From a virus: 25,877 nucleotides of DNA. Of this stretch, positions 1,879-25,877 are shown one piece after another. A program made the translations under genes and the position numbers. The stretch lies in the IMG/VR virus record IMGVR_UViG_3300042691_050860, positions 1-25,877 of that record; one strand, 5' to 3'. The notes below the pieces were generated by a model. It worked only from the letters and a program-made list of their open reading frames with translations. It did not search any database and had not been told where the DNA came from. The stretch's first letter is position 1. Each line of letters begins with the position of its first letter.

Positions 1879-2271
1879 TGGTGGAGAAGACGGGAGTCGA
1901 ACCCGTGTCTTGTTCGCGATAACTATAAGTGACTACACGTTTAGTACAACATTGTTTCTCAATGTTACGAAATATTAGGTTTGATATATGTGAGAAACCT
2001 ACCTACAAACAACTTGGTCTCAGAGTTATTTTAGAGGAGCTCTGACCTGTGACCCCTATATTGGACTTCTGTTCCTAGGTGTATGTCCTAACCGACCCGA
2101 GTGTTGTCACTTATATTAAGCAACAACAGGAGCTTCCTCAGCAACAAGACCGAGAAGAGCCATTTTAGCAAAAGTATTGCCAGTTGTGTTTCGAACCAGT
2201 TTTTAAGGAGTTAATTCAGCTCCTACGTGCCACCTATACCTATACACGCCAATCGATGCCATTTCTTCCCC
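1879..2271 (-). ncRNA. ssrA: tmRNA (ssrA), one-piece, phage-encoded
   Basis: Read on the minus strand, the 393-nt RNA starts GGGGAAG and ends CTTCTCC-A-CCA. These pair as a 7-bp acceptor stem whose third pair is G.U, the alanyl-tRNA synthetase identity element, with an A discriminator and an encoded CCA. A T-arm with loop TTCGACT lies next to the 3' end. The 5' side has the D-like segment and a partner for helix 2. A pseudoknot-like AGGAG/CTCCT stem lies just before the tag reading frame. tmRNA with SmpB frees stalled ribosomes and adds a degradation tag. No smpB is seen in this window, so the host protein would be used. A host-like promoter lies just upstream. Phage tmRNAs are known but uncommon. 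Confidence 0.93.
2116..2181 (-). other. tmRNA tag reading frame (21 residues, ends in PVVA)
   Basis: The frame that begins at a GGC resume codon (2179-2181) runs 21 codons to TAA. The last ten residues are LVAEEAPVVA. It is longer than the usual tag of about 10 residues and lacks the canonical LAA end that ClpX and ClpA recognise. The other two frames give no short tag with a stop at a fitting place. The exact resume codon is inferred from the position after the first pseudoknot. Confidence 0.7.
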
Positions 2272-4976: not shown

Positions 4977-4984
4977 GATAAATA
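4977..4984 (-). promoter_or_regulatory. TATTTATC box of the HExxH gene
   Basis: TATTTATC reads on the minus strand, ends 3 nt before the GTG start, and directly follows the T-run of the clpC terminator. Confidence 0.45.
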
Positions 4985-9681: not shown

Positions 9682-9689
9682 TATTTATA
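9682..9689 (+). promoter_or_regulatory. TATTTATA box of the 9693 fusion gene
   Basis: TATTTATA ends 3 nt before the ATG at 9693, immediately after the KTSC gene. No -33 TTTG is present. Confidence 0.5.
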
Positions 9690-11308: not shown

Positions 11309-11316
11309 TATTTATA
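11309..11316 (+). promoter_or_regulatory. TATTTATA box of the 11328 gene
   Basis: TATTTATA lies 11 nt before the ATG. No further box is seen before the genes from 12377 to 16192, so this may drive a long transcript that reaches terminase. Confidence 0.5.
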
Positions 11317-11327
11317 AAGAAAAATAA

Positions 11328-12356
11328 ATGGCTACAGTTACATATCTTATAGCACCTTGTTCTGGTGGTGCTGCAATTGACGTTGAGTTTCAAACAACTG
11401 ATTTACCTGCGGTAGGTGGTAATTATCACTTATCTTTCACAGGTGCCACTGCAGAAGGTTGTTATGAGGTAGTAGATACTGCGGAGCCAGGTACAGGAAC
11501 AGATGGGGTTAGTGGTGCGATAGGAACAAATTATGGAGACTGTCAAACTTGTCTCGACGCAAACCCAACCCCAACCCCTACTCCGACGCCAACGGTCACA
11601 CCTACAAAAACTGTCACACCGACAGTAACACCCACAAAAACACCAACTAATACTCCAACTACAACCTCTTCACCCACCCCAACTGCAACACCTGGAGTTA
11701 CACCCTCTATCACACCATCTCCTACAGCGACTCAAACCGCAACACCTACCACAACCCCTACGAAGACAGTAACTCCTTCTGTGACTCCTACTAATACACC
11801 AACTCCTTCTGTCACCGCCACTAACACACCAACAACTTCAGTCACCCCATCAGTGACTCCAACGAATACTGTAACACCTTCAGTTACTCCAACAAATACT
11901 CCCTCGTTAACACCTACTAAAACAGTCACACCAACTCCAACTACAACACCTACTCCAAGTCCAACACCCCCCGGGTTTTGGATAATTACAGATTGTGATG
12001 GTACAACTCGTATAGTTGATTTAGTTGGAATTAGTCCAACTTTAGGTGAGATGTATTTATTACAATTTAGTGGTTCAACACCTTACGGATGTTATTTTAT
12101 AATTGACACAAGTTACGGACCTTCTACAGACATAGGAAGTTCTTTGGGTGGTCCATATGTAGACTGTACTGAATGTGGTGTAAATTATACGGGAACCTCT
12201 GTAAATAGTTTTTATGAAACGGAGGGATTCTGTTGTGAAAGCGGAACTACATCTCCGGGTGCGGCTTACCCACATCCTGTATACGCGGCTCCAGGTGGAG
12301 TTGCGATACAATTAAACGCTGTTGCTCTCGGAGGATTTAACGGTCTAAATAATTAA
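11328..12356 (+). CDS. Pro-Thr-linker structural protein with two related Cys domains
   Basis: The 342-residue protein has an N-terminal domain of about 78 residues, a Pro-Thr-rich linker of about 136 residues (11565-11972), then a second domain related to the first. Both share a GCY motif after a beta-rich stretch ([17 protein letters not shown] against [17 protein letters not shown]) and end in a DCxxC pair (DCQTC, DCTEC). A C-terminal tail of about 60 residues has GFCCESG and ends GGFNGLNN. There is no signal peptide. The layout of two globular modules on a stiff, extended linker suits a virion decoration or fibre-like adhesin. I do not recognise a named family. Paired Cys could form disulfides or bind metal. 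Confidence 0.75.
11565..11972 (+). repeat. Pro-Thr (PT, TPTxTVTPT) repeat linker
   Basis: About 136 codons alternate Pro and Thr with Val, Ser, Lys and Asn inserts ([15 protein letters not shown]-like units of 6-12 residues). Codon use for Pro and Thr varies widely between units, so the repeat is maintained at protein level rather than by recent DNA duplication. Open frames on the other strand here are by-products. Confidence 0.85.
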
Positions 12357-16191: not shown

Positions 16192-17952
16192 GTGACTAAA
16201 GAACAATTAATTATAGAGGTTACCAAATGCATGAGGAACACTCCTTATGCATTAAAAACCTATCTCCAAACATACGATAACACTGTATCAAAGTATGTTC
16301 CATTGGACTTGTTTCCTGACCAAGTCAGTTTGATAGAGGACTATGACAAGTACAATGAAAATATTGCGTTGAAATATAGACAAGCCGGAGTTTCAACAGT
16401 TACGGCTGCATGGGCATCAAAAAAACTAGTATTTGCCAAGAAACAAAAACCTGAAAAAATTCTAATTATCGCCAACAAACTTGATACGTCGGTTGAAATG
16501 GCTAATAAAATTAGAAATTTCACCGAGCAATGGCCTGCGTGGGTTGGTGTTGGATTTTCACCCGAAAAAAACTCTCAGAGACATTTCAAATTAACCAACG
16601 ACTGTGAGGTAAAGGCAGTTGCAACCTCCAAAGACGCCTTACGTGGTTATACCCCCACTATATTGATTTTTGACGAAGCTGCGTTCATTGAGGCGGATAA
16701 TGACTTCTGGTCTGCATGTATGGCCTCATTATCTACGGGCGGTAAAGTAATTGTTGTATCTACACCAAACGGTTATGACCCAATATATTACGAAATCTAC
16801 GACCAAGCACTCAGAAACATGAATGAGTTCAAAATCTCCGAGATGTATTGGTATCGTGACCCAAGATATACCAGGGATTTATACATGGTTAAAACAAATG
16901 ATTTGGTTCATTTCTTACTCAACAGGGAAGACTATCCAAAAGACGTTGTTGTTGACCTTTCAATTGATAATCCGTATGAAAGAGACCATACCATAACAAC
17001 AGATTACATTTCCAAAGGTTATAAACCATGTTCAGCTTGGTTCGAGGGAATGGTTAAGAAACTTAAATTTGACAGAAGGAAAGTTGCTCAAGAATTGGAG
17101 TGTAACTTTTTAGGTTCAGGTGACAACGTCTTCGAATCTGAACTCATGCAAAACATTTCTCACAACCAACTCAGAGAACCTTCGGCAAAATTAATGGGGG
17201 GAGCTCTTTGGATATTTAAGGAGCCTGAAAATAATCACAAATATGTCATGGGTGTCGACGTATCAAGAGGAGACTCTGAAGACTTCTCGTGTATTGAGAT
17301 TATTGATTTTGATACAAGAGAACAAGTTCTTGAATACGTTGGAAAGGTACCTCCGGACGTCATAGCTGAGATTGCATACAAATGGGGGTCAATGTATAGT
17401 GCTTATTGTGTTATCGATATTACGGGGGGTATGGGGGTCTCTACTGCAAGGAAAATGCAGGAGATGTCTTACGCTGCAGGTCTTTACGTAGATAATGTAG
17501 ACCCGTCCAAAAAATGGAAGTGGGACCCGAAACTCAATGAAAAAATTCCTGGTATAAATTTCAACTCAAAAAGAGTTCAAATTATTTCAGCATTCGAAGA
17601 AGCGGTAAGACATGACTTCAAAATATATTCCAATCGATTATACAATGAAATGAACACGTTCATCTATGTAAATGGAAGACCAGACCATCAAAAAGGTCAT
17701 CATGATGACTGTATTATGGCTATGTCGATGGCAATTTATGTCGCAGAAAAAAATTTCCAATCATTACAAAAGGTTGTGAATCATACTAAAGCAATGTTAA
17801 ATTCGTGGACAAGTATTAGCCACGAAAACAAAAATACATCAGAATTTTTCAATCCGATGGTTCCTCAGATGGGAAGACAACAGTATCAACATCCCAACGC
17901 ACCCTCACGAGCCGATTATCAGAAGTATGGATGGTTATTCGGAGTGAAATAA
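16192..17952 (+). CDS. Terminase large subunit (T4 gp17-like)
   Basis: The 586-residue protein has both motor domains. In the ATPase, the Walker A region is KYRQAGVSTVTA (61-72), Walker B is ILIFDEAAFI (157-166) and the coupling motif is VVSTPNG (188-194). The Walker A lacks the usual GKT lysine; the RQxGxST form, with an upstream Arg, is seen in other T4-like terminases. In the RNase-H-fold nuclease, acidic residues are Asp356 (GVDVSRGD), Asp409 (VIDITGG) and Asp505/506 (GHHDDCIMA). It cuts concatemeric DNA and drives it into the prohead through the portal. The start is GTG at 16192, 6 nt after the previous stop. No small terminase is recognised in the window. Confidence 0.95.
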   Translation: MTKEQLIIEVTKCMRNTPYALKTYLQTYDNTVSKYVPLDLFPDQVSLIEDYDKYNENIALKYRQAGVSTVTAAWASKKLVFAKKQKPEKILIIANKLDTSVEMANKIRNFTEQWPAWVGVGFSPEKNSQRHFKLTNDCEVKAVATSKDALRGYTPTILIFDEAAFIEADNDFWSACMASLSTGGKVIVVSTPNGYDPIYYEIYDQALRNMNEFKISEMYWYRDPRYTRDLYMVKTNDLVHFLLNREDYPKDVVVDLSIDNPYERDHTITTDYISKGYKPCSAWFEGMVKKLKFDRRKVAQELECNFLGSGDNVFESELMQNISHNQLREPSAKLMGGALWIFKEPENNHKYVMGVDVSRGDSEDFSCIEIIDFDTREQVLEYVGKVPPDVIAEIAYKWGSMYSAYCVIDITGGMGVSTARKMQEMSYAAGLYVDNVDPSKKWKWDPKLNEKIPGINFNSKRVQIISAFEEAVRHDFKIYSNRLYNEMNTFIYVNGRPDHQKGHHDDCIMAMSMAIYVAEKNFQSLQKVVNHTKAMLNSWTSISHENKNTSEFFNPMVPQMGRQQYQHPNAPSRADYQKYGWLFGVK

Positions 17953-17989: not shown

Positions 17990-19837
17990 ATGAGCGAACA
18001 GAATCTAACGATATGGCAGAGACTGTCCAAAACCTTTGGACCTAACTCTCTGCTGAACCAAGATTTTCCTACTTACAAGTTCGATAAAACGGAACTTTTA
18101 AGAACTAAAAGTAGAGACGAATATCAGAGGGAAAAGTTGCAGGCACAACAAAGTTATTACCTTGCAAATCAATGGGCTAAGGTTGAAAATAACTTATATT
18201 CACAAGCGATTTATTACGAACCTTCAAGACTATCAGCTCAGTATGATTATGAGTCAATGGAATACACTCCGGAGATATCCGCCGCTCTCGATATCTACGC
18301 CGAAGAATCTACAACTCCAAATGAAGATGGATTTATACTTCAAATTTACTCAGAATCGAAAAGAATTAAGGGTGTATTAGCAGACCTATTCAATAATGCT
18401 TTGGATATCAACACAAACTTACCGATGTGGACAAGAAACACATGTAAGTATGGTGACAATTTTGTTTATTTGAAGTTAGACCCTGAAAAAGGTATTGTCG
18501 GATGTCAACAACTTCCAACAATTGAAATTGAGAGAAGAGAAGTAGGTGTAAGTCAGAAAATTTCAATTGAACCTGAAAAACCAGAAGACAGAAAAGCACT
18601 CCATTTCGATTGGAAAAACAAAAATATGACATTCCAATCTTGGGAGATTGCTCACTTTAGATTACTCGGTGATGATAGAAGATTACCTTATGGTACTTCA
18701 ATGTTAGAAAAAGCCAGAAGAATTTGGAAACAATTATTGTTATCTGAGGATGCAATGTTGATTTACCGTACTTCAAGAGCACCTGAGAGAAGAATTTTCA
18801 AGGTGTTTGTGGGTAATATGAACGATGATGATGTTGAAGCATATGTACAACGTGTTGCAAACAAATTCAAAAGAGAACAAATTGTAGATAGTAAAACTGG
18901 TCAAGTTGATATGAGATTCAATCAAATGGCGGTTGACCAAGACTATTTTGTACCAGTACGTGACCCCGCAGCTCCGAGTCCAATTGATACTCTAGCGGGT
19001 GCTCAAAACCTATCTGAAATTGCGGATATTGAATATATTCAGAAAAAACTTTTAACAGCACTAAGAGTTCCGAAAGCTTTCTTAGGTTTCGAAGAAGTCG
19101 TTGGTGATGGAAAAAATCTTTCTTTACAAGACATTCGTTTTGCTAGAACGATTAATAGAATTCAAAGGAGTATGCTTCAAGAACTCAATAAAATTGCAAT
19201 TATTCACTTGTTTTTATTGGGTTTCGAGGATGAATTGGAAAATTTCACACTTGGTCTTACAAATCCATCTACACAAGCCGACTTACTCAAAATTGACGTT
19301 TGGAAAGAAAAAGTTTTACTTTACAAAGATTTGGTTGCTGACCCAGGTAATGGTATACAAGCCACTTCATCTACATGGGCTAAAAAACACATATTTGGTT
19401 GGTCTGATGATGAAGTTAAAATCGATTTACAACAACAAAGAATTGAAAGAGCCGTTGGTGAGGAACTTAAACAAACACCAACAGTTATTACTAAAACAGG
19501 TGTATTTGATAATATTGACAAACTTTACGGTACGACAACGGGGGCTACACCATCAGCAGGTGCTGAAACAACACCAGGTGGAGAAAGTATCTTAGGTGGA
19601 CCACCAACTGATTTCGGTTCAGAGCCAGCCGCTCCTGAAGCACCACCGGCACCAGAGGCTCCGGCACCTGAAGCTCCGCCAGCGGGAGGAGAGGTTACAC
19701 CTGAATCTAGAAAAAAAGATATGAATATTTTGGTCGAAAATGACCTAATTGAAGGTAAACAAATTATTGATTTGGGTCAGGCTCAAGAATCTTTGGGAAA
19801 AATTTCTCAAGAATTGAATAAGTTGTTAAAGTCCTAA
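17990..19837 (+). CDS. Portal protein (T4 gp20-like)
   Basis: The 615-residue protein matches the T4-type portal: an N-terminal wing segment (YESMEYTPEISAALDIYAEESTTP), FRLLGDDRRLPYGTSMLEKARRIWKQL, and the crown/stem region TALRVPKAFLGFEEVVGDGKNLSLQDIRFARTI (only short key stretches: RVPKAFLGFE and DIRFARTINRIQ). Twelve copies form the vertex channel through which the terminase packages DNA and on which the prohead core assembles. It is about 90 residues longer than T4 gp20. The excess is a C-terminal Ala/Pro/Glu-rich linker (about residues 535-575, PEAPPAPEAPAPEAPP) and a helical end. The extension could bind the core protein or the unknown Pro/Ala-rich protein at 12377. Confidence 0.92.
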   Translation: MSEQNLTIWQRLSKTFGPNSLLNQDFPTYKFDKTELLRTKSRDEYQREKLQAQQSYYLANQWAKVENNLYSQAIYYEPSRLSAQYDYESMEYTPEISAALDIYAEESTTPNEDGFILQIYSESKRIKGVLADLFNNALDINTNLPMWTRNTCKYGDNFVYLKLDPEKGIVGCQQLPTIEIERREVGVSQKISIEPEKPEDRKALHFDWKNKNMTFQSWEIAHFRLLGDDRRLPYGTSMLEKARRIWKQLLLSEDAMLIYRTSRAPERRIFKVFVGNMNDDDVEAYVQRVANKFKREQIVDSKTGQVDMRFNQMAVDQDYFVPVRDPAAPSPIDTLAGAQNLSEIADIEYIQKKLLTALRVPKAFLGFEEVVGDGKNLSLQDIRFARTINRIQRSMLQELNKIAIIHLFLLGFEDELENFTLGLTNPSTQADLLKIDVWKEKVLLYKDLVADPGNGIQATSSTWAKKHIFGWSDDEVKIDLQQQRIERAVGEELKQTPTVITKTGVFDNIDKLYGTTTGATPSAGAETTPGGESILGGPPTDFGSEPAAPEAPPAPEAPAPEAPPAGGEVTPESRKKDMNILVENDLIEGKQIIDLGQAQESLGKISQELNKLLKS

Positions 19838-19845
19838 TATTTATA
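19838..19845 (+). promoter_or_regulatory. TATTTATA box of the 19861 gene
   Basis: TATTTATA follows the portal TAA with no gap and ends 15 nt before the next ATG. Confidence 0.5.
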
Positions 19846-19860
19846 ACGAAAGGTAATATA

Positions 19861-20559
19861 ATGACTTTCGGCCGCGTAAAATCACAAATTGAATCTACAC
19901 TTATTGACTCATACAAAAATGAGAAGGAGTTCAAGAAAACTTTGAGAGAGTTCAAAGAAAATGTTCTTAAGAATCAAAAGTTTTCGAAACTCTATTCAAT
20001 TTACGACCAGTTGTCTTCTCCACAAGGTTTATCTGAAAAAGATGCTGAAATGTTTTTGAGCGAAGGATTGGATATTATTTCAAAACTAGCTCCACAAGTA
20101 AAATTACCTTTTTCAAAAAGTGATTCGAAAATCAACAACTACTCAGATATCGATAATTTAGTTTATACAAATAAATTGGATTTGAAAGAGAGAGTTGAAT
20201 CTAGAAAAAGAATTCTTTCTGTGTTGAAACAGGAAAAGAAAAGTGTTAACGAATCTATTAAAATTCCTGTGAGTTCAATGGTGAAAATTGCAAATCAGAC
20301 TTTAGAAAATTACATTCAGGAAATGGATACTGAAAGTAAAAAACTTTTTATGGAGTTAGCTAAAACTGATAAGGAAAATTTGGAAAAAAATTACTCAGAC
20401 TTGAAAGAAAGTGCTGTAAAGAAATTGAGTAATTTAATGACTAATGAGAAAGAGGAAGAGTTGAAAGAAAAAATTTCTGAGACAATTGAAAAACTAAGCC
20501 AAGAAAAATTTACCCAAATCAACTATCTGAAGTTGATGACTTTAGAAAAAAGTCTATAA
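19861..20559 (+). CDS. Helical prohead-core-like protein (gp67/gp68 position)
   Basis: The 232-residue protein is almost wholly helical and Lys/Glu-rich, with likely coiled coils at about residues 18-60 and 155-220. It has no membrane span or catalytic motif. Its place between the portal and the protease is where T4 carries the small prohead core genes 67 and 68, and its composition fits a core component, but I cannot show homology. It has its own TATTTATA box. The 3' end overlaps the convergent bS21 gene by 6 nt. Confidence 0.7.
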   Translation: MTFGRVKSQIESTLIDSYKNEKEFKKTLREFKENVLKNQKFSKLYSIYDQLSSPQGLSEKDAEMFLSEGLDIISKLAPQVKLPFSKSDSKINNYSDIDNLVYTNKLDLKERVESRKRILSVLKQEKKSVNESIKIPVSSMVKIANQTLENYIQEMDTESKKLFMELAKTDKENLEKNYSDLKESAVKKLSNLMTNEKEEELKEKISETIEKLSQEKFTQINYLKLMTLEKSL

Positions 20560-20742
20560 TCCGTTTTTAATTTTTTGAGAGTAGATTGCTTTCAAAAGTT
20601 TTTTCCTTTTCTTAACAGATTTCTTTTCGAATTCTTTTCTCTCGTTGAGGATTTGATTCTGCTTAGTTTTAATAACTTTGTTCTTAAGCACCTTAAGGGA
20701 CCTTTCTAAATTTTCACTATTTTTTACGTCAATAATTAACAT
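20554..20742 (-). CDS. rpsU: Small ribosomal subunit protein bS21, phage-encoded
   Basis: The 62-residue basic protein follows the bS21 pattern: MLIIDVKNSENLERSLKVLKNK, then KTKQNQILNERKEFEKKSV and a C-terminal basic helix KKRKKLLKAIYSQ (quoted in short parts). The N terminus MLII-V is typical of Bacteroidetes bS21. bS21 lies at the mRNA exit side of the 30S subunit near the anti-Shine-Dalgarno, and in Flavobacteriia it helps hide that sequence. A phage copy could replace host bS21 and bias initiation toward phage messages; this is inference, although phage bS21 genes are known. It is the only minus-strand gene in the head module, lies convergent to 19861-20559 and has no clear promoter in the 97 nt upstream. 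Confidence 0.85.
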   Translation of the reverse strand: MLIIDVKNSENLERSLKVLKNKVIKTKQNQILNERKEFEKKSVKKRKKLLKAIYSQKIKNGL

Positions 20743-20777
20743 ATTCTACATATAAGTATCCTGTAATACTTGCTTTT

Positions 20778-20809
20778 TTTGACATTGACTAAAACTACAA
20801 CTATTTTTG
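20778..20809 (+). promoter_or_regulatory. Host-like promoter TTTG-N20-TATTTTTG
   Basis: TTTG (20778-20781) and TATTTTTG (20802-20809) are separated by 20 nt, a full match to the Bacteroidetes vegetative consensus. The next ATG is at 20840, giving a leader of about 25 nt. No TATTTATA box is present here, unlike the neighbouring head genes. Confidence 0.6.
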
Positions 20810-20839: not shown

Positions 20840-21268
20840 ATGAAAAAAGGAAAAAGTGTAAAATTAAATCTTTTCACGCCAATTAAATCGATGTACGGAA
20901 CTGTAGATTCAAAAAACTTGAAATCTATTTTCATAAACATCCAATCTTGGGTAACACCAATAAAAGAAACAGAAAACTGGAATAGAGTTGTTGGAAACCT
21001 CAACAGACAAATCAAGCACTCTGTATTCAATTCCAATAATTCTAACATTTTTTTAGAAAAAACTATTATTGATTTGGACCTTAGAGTAAGTGGAATTTCA
21101 ACAGGAAAAAAGTCTTTTTTTAATTTGGAAGTCAACCTTTTCACAAATGAGGAATTAGATTTCAAATCGGAAAAACTGAAACTCGAAATCAAAAAAATTA
21201 TCAAATCAATTTATCAGAATAATATAGAAAAAAATAATTATTTCGAGTTCTCCAAATCAAAAAAATAA
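20840..21268 (+). CDS. Hypothetical protein, 142 residues
   Basis: I do not recognise a family. The protein starts MKKGKSVKLNLFTPIKSMYGTV, has a basic middle (NLNRQIKHSVFN), an alternating-strand segment (IIDLDLRVSGISTGKKSFFNL) and a Lys-rich C-terminal helix. The mix of strand and basic helix would suit a small head or nucleic-acid-binding protein. It sits between bS21 (divergent) and the protease gene and appears to have a host-type promoter, so it may be expressed earlier than the head genes around it. Confidence 0.65.
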   Translation: MKKGKSVKLNLFTPIKSMYGTVDSKNLKSIFINIQSWVTPIKETENWNRVVGNLNRQIKHSVFNSNNSNIFLEKTIIDLDLRVSGISTGKKSFFNLEVNLFTNEELDFKSEKLKLEIKKIIKSIYQNNIEKNNYFEFSKSKK

Positions 21269-21287: not shown

Positions 21288-21295
21288 TATTTATC
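21288..21295 (+). promoter_or_regulatory. TATTTATC box of the prohead protease gene
   Basis: TATTTATC ends 12 nt before the ATG at 21308. Confidence 0.45.
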
Positions 21296-21307: not shown

Positions 21308-22021
21308 ATGAAACAACTTAGAATATTAGAGGCTCACGAACTTGGACACGGAATCTTAATTGAGATGGATGCGGGTTTCATCAATCCTAATGATTCACTC
21401 AACTTACCAATTATGGAACAGGCAAGAAAAATGGATTACAAAAACCCATTTGAATTTTATGCCGTTCTTCAGAAATACGACACACCAAATCGTAATGGGA
21501 GATTTTATCCTGAAAAAATTCTCAAAAGAGAAGCAGATAGATACAAAAAAATAATCCAAAAAGGATTGTCAACATCAGAATTGAATCATCCAGAATCTTC
21601 ATTAATCGATTTAGATAGAGTATCACATTTGATTACAGATATATGGTGGGACAAAAACATCCTGATGGGAAAGTTGAAATTACTAACAAGCCCCGGATTT
21701 CACGAATCGGGTGTTGTTTCATGTAAAGGAGATGTTGCTGCAAATCTTATGAGACAAGGTGTTACCATGGGAGTATCTTCAAGAGGTGTGGGTTCACTCA
21801 AAAAAGTTGGAGAAAGAAATGAGGTACAAGACGATTTCGAATTAATCTGTTTTGATTTGGTATCATCACCTTCTACACCTGGAGCATATTTGTTTTCAAA
21901 TATCGATGAAAGAGGTCAATATGAGGAAAACCTTGAGGAAGAAAAAAAATCTAAAACAGAGGGTTCAATGGATAAGTCTATTGATTTAATGAAAAAACTT
22001 ACCGATTTTTTAGGAAAATAA
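21308..22021 (+). CDS. Prohead maturation protease (T4 gp21-like)
   Basis: The 237-residue protein matches the T4 gp21/herpes-assemblin-like serine protease fold. The conserved elements are YAVLQKYDTPNRNGRFYP, the histidine motif ELNHPE (His94), the serine motif GVSSRGVG (Ser157 or Ser158) and FDLVSSPSTPGA (Asp183). It cleaves prohead core and capsid proteins during maturation, normally after Glu in (L/I)-x-E followed by Ala or Gly. Matching sites are present in the scaffold and capsid proteins of this window. The charged C-terminal tail (EENLEEEKKSKTEGS) could be removed by self-cleavage. The gene has its own TATTTATC box, and the DUF4494-like gene starts 4 nt after its stop. Confidence 0.93.
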   Translation: MKQLRILEAHELGHGILIEMDAGFINPNDSLNLPIMEQARKMDYKNPFEFYAVLQKYDTPNRNGRFYPEKILKREADRYKKIIQKGLSTSELNHPESSLIDLDRVSHLITDIWWDKNILMGKLKLLTSPGFHESGVVSCKGDVAANLMRQGVTMGVSSRGVGSLKKVGERNEVQDDFELICFDLVSSPSTPGAYLFSNIDERGQYEENLEEEKKSKTEGSMDKSIDLMKKLTDFLGK

Positions 22022-22275: not shown

Positions 22276-22283
22276 TATTTATA
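22276..22283 (+). promoter_or_regulatory. TATTTATA box of the 22299 gene
   Basis: TATTTATA ends 15 nt before the ATG and directly follows a terminator. Confidence 0.5.
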
Positions 22284-22690: not shown

Positions 22691-22698
22691 TATTTATA
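22691..22698 (+). promoter_or_regulatory. TATTTATA box of the 22712 gene
   Basis: TATTTATA ends 13 nt before the ATG at 22712, 8 nt after the T-run of the terminator. Confidence 0.5.
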
Positions 22699-24766: not shown

Positions 24767-25877
24767 ATGGGAGCATTATTAGAATCAGGTCTTGTTGGTA
24801 ACATCGGTCTTAAGCACCTTAAAGTTATCAAAGAAGACACAATCGGCAAGTGGGACAAATTAGGATTCCTAGAGGGTCTTAAAGGTCACTTGAAAGAAAA
24901 CATAGCACAGCTTTATGAAAACCAAGCTAGCTATTTAATCAATGAAGCAGCAACGACATCTGATACAGGTGCATTCGAAACTGTGGTTTTCCCTATCGTT
25001 AGAAGAGTTTTCTCTAAATTGTTAGCTAACGATATCGTATCAGTACAAGCAATGAACTTACCAATCGGTAAATTGTTCTACTTTGTACCTAACGTACAAA
25101 ACTATGAAGTAGGTGGTGGTCAAGCAGACAACACAGGTATTCACTACAAACCAGTAGGTGCACCTGATGGTCCAACAGCGGGAGACCCTAACGTAGGTTA
25201 CAACTATAATAACGGTAGAGACCTTTATGATAGATTCTACGAGGGTCAGGAACCAGCTTTAGACCCACCAGGCATGTATGACTATTCTAAAGGTCAATTC
25301 TCAGCTATCACTGGTACAGCAGTAACTGCGGTTTGGAACAACACAACGTTGAACCTTGTAACTTCAGGTTATGGTACAAGTGATTACAGAAAAGTTTTGT
25401 TAATCATGTCAGGTTTCGCATCTGATGGTGCAGGTAAACTTATCGGTCCTGATGGTCAACCTATGGACAATGAATCTTTCTTAGCTGATTTGACACTTTA
25501 CGGAAGTGAGACAGGAAATCCAACTACTGGTGCAGGTAGAGCTGCGGGTCCATATCTTTTCAGAGTAGTAACTCAAAGATACGGTAAAGGAATCGTACAG
25601 TATGGTAACAACAACCAAACGTTGGTATTCCCTAACTCTAAGACTGGTGGTGGTCAGTATGATGATATCTGTACTCCTGACGGAGAAATCTATCTTGAGG
25701 TAGACCTTCAAGTTCCATGTTGTGTAACTTGCACAGGATGTCTTGATGGTTACACAGGTTCAACATTCTCTTCAACTACAGCTAACAATGACGCTTTCAC
25801 ACCTGTTTACAGAATTTACAAGAATTTGGAATTCGAAGACAGAATGGGTGAGGTTTCATTTGACCTTATGTCAGTAA
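24767..25877 (+). CDS. Major capsid protein (T4 gp23-like), N-terminal 370 codons
   Basis: The gene runs off the right edge. The N terminus (MGALLESGLVGNIGLKHLKV) leads to a helical propeptide, then YLINEAATTSD, with I-N-E-A placing a gp21-type cleavage after Glu60, near the T4 position (Glu65). The mature part then has VVFPIVRRVFSKLLANDIVSVQAMNLPIGKLFYF (key words FPIVRRVF and VQAMNLPIG), a gp23 hallmark. Further on come a Gly/Asn-rich insertion (about residues 120-160) and an uncommon Cys cluster, VPCCVTCTGC, near residue 325. It forms the hexameric shell. It follows the scaffold gene by 28 nt with an A-rich leader and no box of its own. Confidence 0.93.
   Translation, partial: MGALLESGLVGNIGLKHLKVIKEDTIGKWDKLGFLEGLKGHLKENIAQLYENQASYLINEAATTSDTGAFETVVFPIVRRVFSKLLANDIVSVQAMNLPIGKLFYFVPNVQNYEVGGGQADNTGIHYKPVGAPDGPTAGDPNVGYNYNNGRDLYDRFYEGQEPALDPPGMYDYSKGQFSAITGTAVTAVWNNTTLNLVTSGYGTSDYRKVLLIMSGFASDGAGKLIGPDGQPMDNESFLADLTLYGSETGNPTTGAGRAAGPYLFRVVTQRYGKGIVQYGNNNQTLVFPNSKTGGGQYDDICTPDGEIYLEVDLQVPCCVTCTGCLDGYTGSTFSSTTANNDAFTPVYRIYKNLEFEDRMGEVSFDLMSV

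Follow-up and report, generated by a model that had tools for sequence, protein, structure and literature searches.

A phage-borne bS21 gene without an extended Shine-Dalgarno element and with a predicted near-leaderless mRNA in the head module of a T4-like Bacteroidota phage

The viral DNA analysed here, a stretch of 25,877 nucleotides (the window), carries a gene for ribosomal protein bS21 (rpsU) in a T4-like head module, between the genes for the portal protein and the prohead protease. The gene is without the extended Shine-Dalgarno (SD) element that most sampled flavobacteria use as a switch for rpsU, and the predicted mRNA has no leader or almost none. We are inclined, with some reserve, to the view that the phage bS21 is made late, becomes part of host ribosomes, leaves the anti-SD hidden and evades the feedback to which the host gene is subject. 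The basis for this in the present analysis is homology, Tyr54, location and strand, purifying selection, the absence of the SD element and a box near the AUG.

The preliminary description had called the minus-strand ORF at 20554-20742 a phage bS21 within the head module, and this identification is borne out: the coordinates are exact, the ORF starts with ATG, and it encodes 62 amino acids (MLIIDVKNSENLERSLKVLKNKVIKTKQNQILNERKEFEKKSVKKRKKLLKAIYSQKIKNGL). The protein reaches 40.6 bits with the Pfam Ribosomal_S21 profile (2.1e-10; cut-off 27), and its top phmmer matches among solved structures are the small-subunit bS21 proteins of 9i5v (2e-10) and 7jil (4e-8), the latter being the F. johnsoniae ribosome. 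With the NCBIfam equivalog TIGR00030 it scored 22.3, under the cut-off of 28.95, as did three other phage bS21 proteins (23.3–25.7), whereas four cellular Bacteroidota proteins lay above it (47–55). Since the Pfam cut-off is exceeded but that of TIGR00030 is not, the protein is homologous to bS21 yet divergent, and the missed cut-off limits a claim of strict functional equivalence, not one of homology. Its sequence marks the ORF as a homologue of bS21 that has Bacteroidota features, Tyr54 among them.

Viral contigs yielded, in a first scan, 42 loci encoding relatives of the window bS21, one of them 98% identical, and more came from scans in which a profile or the F. johnsoniae protein served as query; when annotated phage records were searched at the protein level, only two matched, weakly and in part. 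Most loci of the first scan share these neighbours and their orientation with the window (the exceptions are L041 and L042), and the place of the gene and its opposite strand recur over dozens of viral contigs. The head-module context holds as well: around the window gene lie TerL, portal, protease and major capsid protein (MCP) genes. Between the window gene and seven relatives pN/pS is 0.05–0.34, and phage bS21 is under purifying selection. These relatives and ratios show that the ORF does not exist by chance. A small gene on the opposite strand inside a structural module might also be a passenger without function, but its conserved place across divergent phages, the pN/pS values and the separate phage lineages in the tree described below contradict this, and we give it hardly any credence.

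Table 1. Features of the window around the bS21 gene, with the tmRNA near the left end
Feature	Position	Strand	Evidence or remark
Phage tmRNA, 21-residue tag GNTFAKMALLGLVAEEAPVVA	1879-2271	-	
Terminase large subunit, T4 type	16192..17952	+	PF03237 3.8e-13; PHROG terminase
Portal protein, gp20 type	17990..19837	+	PF07230 7.9e-75
Helical 232-aa neighbour, conserved, convergent with rpsU, 6-bp overlap	19861..20559	+	
Phage rpsU, bS21, 62 aa, Tyr54 present	20554..20742	-	Pfam PF01165 2.1e-10; PDB bS21 matches; pN/pS 0.05-0.34
rpsU start region without extended SD	20743..20767	-	16S-tail pairing -4.1 kcal/mol (predicted)
Promoter-like box TACTTATA of rpsU, starts -16 from AUG	20751..20758	-	sequence; predicted leader ~3-4 nt
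Divergent promoter-like pair, host type, before gene 20840	20779..20809	+	TTGACA 20779-20784, TATTTTTG 20802-20809
142-aa neighbour, conserved, divergent from rpsU	20840..21268	+	next to rpsU at most related loci; identity 37-96%
Prohead protease, gp21 type	21308..22021	+	PF03420 5.5e-22
Major capsid protein, gp23 type, continues past window end	24767..25876	+	PF07068 3.1e-8

The novelty that the preliminary description implied for such an arrangement falls away, because Chen et al. 2022 already described 47 Bacteroidota phage genomes whose head module holds bS21 on the reverse strand (PMC9723584), and the window is thus a further member of a known bS21 phage group. With these jumbo myophages (clades a-e; bS21 genomes of ~293–331 kb) it has in common a reverse-strand bS21 gene flanked by two hypothetical genes within the TerL/portal/protease/MCP region, an aromatic residue at position 54, which those phages keep, chaperone and Clp genes, and a bS21 of Bacteroidota type (PMC9723584). 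It differs in its nearby tmRNA, of which the main text of PMC9723584 makes no mention, and the SD and leader features of phage rpsU are absent from that description. The 142-aa neighbour, modelled as a confident alpha/beta fold (pLDDT 93), may correspond to bS21_CN of Chen et al.; the sole strong match in a fold search was another uncharacterised phage (Myoviridae) protein, and in the PDB nothing was better than E 0.001. A fold search with the 232-aa neighbour gave no useful match.

The tmRNA named in the preliminary description does belong to the phage: the motif of its tag is present in 51 viral contigs, of which three carry a bS21 locus of the first scan as well, and the genes on either side are syntenic in phage contigs. 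The tag is conserved in phages as GNTFAKMAxLGLIAEEAVVxA or similar and ends in VVA, VEA, VKA or VAA, not in LAA; six of the eight cellular Bacteroidota tmRNAs tested give 9-residue tags, e.g. GENNYALAA. We rejected the idea that positions 1-1872 (SusC/TonB-like, beta-barrel and CxxCxxCC genes) are host flank beside a host tmRNA, which would have meant a prophage junction or a chimeric assembly, because many phage contigs have these genes and the tmRNA in synteny. The minus-strand gene at 1-555 is the start of a phage-borne SusC/TonB-like outer-membrane protein that runs past the window edge; its identity across phage contigs is 71–98%, and that of the CxxCxxCC neighbour 51–85%. Gene 2331 found no relatives as sole query in the scan, and tblastn of the loci fetched via the tmRNA tag found them at 28–58%. 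The window itself is only a fragment, of 25.9 kb; contigs that share its tmRNA region attain lengths of 317–321 kb. A plus-strand gene at 11328-12356 encodes a protein in which a long stretch consists of Thr/Pro-rich repeats.

Tyr54, which in Bacteroidota bS21 stacks on A1534 of 16S rRNA (PMC9976891), is present in the window protein and retained in 93% of the phage copies, so that a loss of anti-SD hiding is not to be expected. Phage and cellular bS21 have in common L16, K17, K20, K22, K40 and R46, and nearly all of them also A52 and Tyr54. With the cellular protein of F. johnsoniae (7jil) the window protein shares 45% identity over 62 residues, including Tyr54, and with cellular Bacteroidota bS21 it shares K17, K20, K22, K40, S42, R46 and A52, but it is of phage type at positions 5, 8, 21, 23, 24, 27, 28 and 50. 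The consistent changes from cellular to phage proteins are R to S/N at 21, F to V at 23, D to I at 24, G to K at 27 and T to Q at 28, with position 50 and others in addition, and the strongest of them (N/S21, V23, I24, K27 and Q28) lie within or after the first helix. Chen et al. placed the first-helix region where mRNA would bind, found divergence in the helix over the anti-SD, and listed Arg21 and Phe23 among the divergent positions (PMC9723584). The main rival reading is one of supply only, in which phage bS21 is a functional equivalent by which ribosomes stay complete as host synthesis stops, mRNA choice being unchanged. We regard it as possible but doubtful: it accords with the retention of Tyr54 and of the residues common to both groups, and with the need for host bS21 in good initiation on SD-less mRNAs (PMC9976891), but the consistent phage residues at 21, 23, 24, 27 and 28 across divergent phages suggest a distinct role, although drift following one capture event might have fixed them too.

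A phylogeny with host bS21, suggested earlier as a check, was computed for 24 phage and 54 cellular proteins. One branch (100/80) has every cellular protein on the same side of it; the phage sequences L041 and L042 adjoin the cellular side. With 64 columns only, the tree gives no resolution of deeper relations.

Two other roles seem less likely. Chen et al. proposed ribosome substitution and raised virion packaging as a possibility (PMC9723584); a non-ribosomal role, such as that of an RNA-binding or packaged virion protein, would suit a gene among head genes, but the 30S-facing features including Tyr54 are retained, and we hold such a role to be very improbable. Phage-borne bS21 is also known from the Pelagibacter phage HTVC008M, and its entry into 70S ribosomes was shown (PMC6375957); likened by description, it differs from the window bS21 in its Alphaproteobacterial lineage and non-Bacteroidota host group. 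Mizuno et al. 2019 reported that pelagiphage bS21 enters E. coli ribosomes and cuts in vitro translation to ~5% (PMC6375957), as would be expected if phage bS21 poisoned ribosomes and shut off the host. However, E. coli is a foreign host for that protein, and relatives of the window phage transcribe bS21 late, together with structural genes that themselves need translation (PMC9723584), so that poisoning appears unlikely.

The start region of the gene sets it apart from cellular rpsU. McNutt et al. 2023 showed that host rpsU is autoregulated via an extended SD, which is read by ribosomes that lack bS21; they also offered an interplay with phages as a speculation (PMC9976891). We predicted the pairing energy between the 25 nt that precede the start codon and a 13-nt 16S tail (1532-1544, the span used by McNutt et al.), with values below -13 kcal/mol taken as an extended SD. 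Such a sequence is present in 28 of 36 distinct cellular rpsU start regions, in a set picked by similarity to a phage-plus-host profile and consisting mostly of Flavobacteriaceae, but in none of the 77 distinct phage start regions, whose mean is -0.9. The window rpsU thus pairs more weakly than SD-autoregulated Flavobacteriales rpsU (Table 1), and the window genes tested are generally SD-less, none having an extended SD. The cellular genes closest by identity, those of Saprospiraceae (52–55%), are likewise without an SD; the absence in phages therefore need not be a phage adaptation, and the SD could have been missing already before the phage acquired rpsU. A viral rpsU without the SD switch used by most sampled flavobacteria seems new relative to the published descriptions that we found.

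A second point that seems new in the same respect is a conserved box near the AUG. A TA[TC]TT[AG]T box lies at -17 to -11 before 47 of 77 phage rpsU genes (1.1 on average in shuffles), and with a slightly looser pattern it stands exactly at -12 in 37 of the 77 (about half); as these genes are related by descent, the counts show conservation, not independent events. In many relatives the rpsU box is GATATTTGTA, which can be assigned neither to the phage box nor to the host box TAnnTTTG, the host-type promoter consensus (PMC9723704). In F. psychrophilum the -7 box covers -12 to -5, and only 5.5% of mRNAs are leaderless (PMC9723704). By this geometry the commonest phage rpsU mRNA would start at the A of AUG and that of the window would have the short leader given in Table 1, a near-leaderless promoter layout in which, as in the missing extended SD, the phage gene differs from cellular Bacteroidota rpsU. 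The TTGACA/TATTTTTR pair before gene 20840 is separate from the rpsU box and is kept in most related loci.

The motif TATTTAT occurs 18 times in the window, counting both strands, and 13 of these lie at most 45 nt upstream of a gene in the sense direction, where only 2.4% of all positions fall (binomial P ~8e-18). It precedes 13 of 28 window genes, as against a mean of 1.1 after shuffling, e.g. at 4978-4984, 9682-9688, 11309-11315, 19838-19844, 21288-21294, 22276-22282 and 22691-22697, and it is found at 66 of 169 gene starts of related phages (about one expected), as compared with 8 of 435 in cellular loci surrounding rpsU. The box is probably a phage late promoter. The late genes had been described as leaderless-looking, which may apply in part: several window genes have the box at -11 or -12, and those at -11 would be leaderless, but in others it lies at -20 to -36. 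Sigma-like proteins are encoded in seven of the ten larger related contigs, which makes a phage late sigma plausible. They include gp55-like proteins of 248–249 aa in related phages (L200 1318-2064, L201 1099-1848, L199 and L202), with weak likeness (PHROG late sigma, E 0.015–0.025; PDB gp55, E 0.15), and, as a second type, a clear sigma-70 protein (L197 1333-2133).

Returning to the reading given at the outset, we assume that late in infection a T4-like Bacteroidota phage makes its own bS21, which would replace or top up host bS21 on the 30S platform. Late transcription and entry into ribosomes are taken by analogy from the work of others on relatives (PMC9723584 and PMC6375957, respectively). 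Tyr54 and the conserved C-terminal half would keep the 16S 3' tail with the anti-SD hidden, ribosomes would stay fit for SD-less mRNAs, including those of the phage, and the binding of mRNA may be tuned by the first helix, which is of phage type; that phage bS21 changes which mRNAs start well is plausible as a hypothesis. With almost no leader and no extended SD, its synthesis would be uncoupled from the SD autoregulation that limits host bS21 in Flavobacteriales. Against this reading stand the SD-less rpsU of Saprospiraceae, the ~5% translation with pelagiphage bS21, the predicted nature of the boxes and pairing energies, and the missed TIGR00030 cut-off. More tentatively, and with doubts of our own, we suggest that phages took bS21, dropped the SD element and put the gene behind a near-leaderless late promoter, beyond restraint by the host's bS21-sensing ribosomes, and that a ribosome pool with phage-type helix 1 and hidden anti-SD would favour SD-less or leaderless late phage mRNAs. 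The comparison of leaders and SD sequences predicts 5' ends of rpsU mRNA at the AUG or within ~4 nt of it. Host bS21 of Flavobacteriales is among the clearest cases of a ribosomal protein deciding which mRNA is read, and a phage bS21 without the host control element would offer a natural test of virus-made specialised ribosomes.
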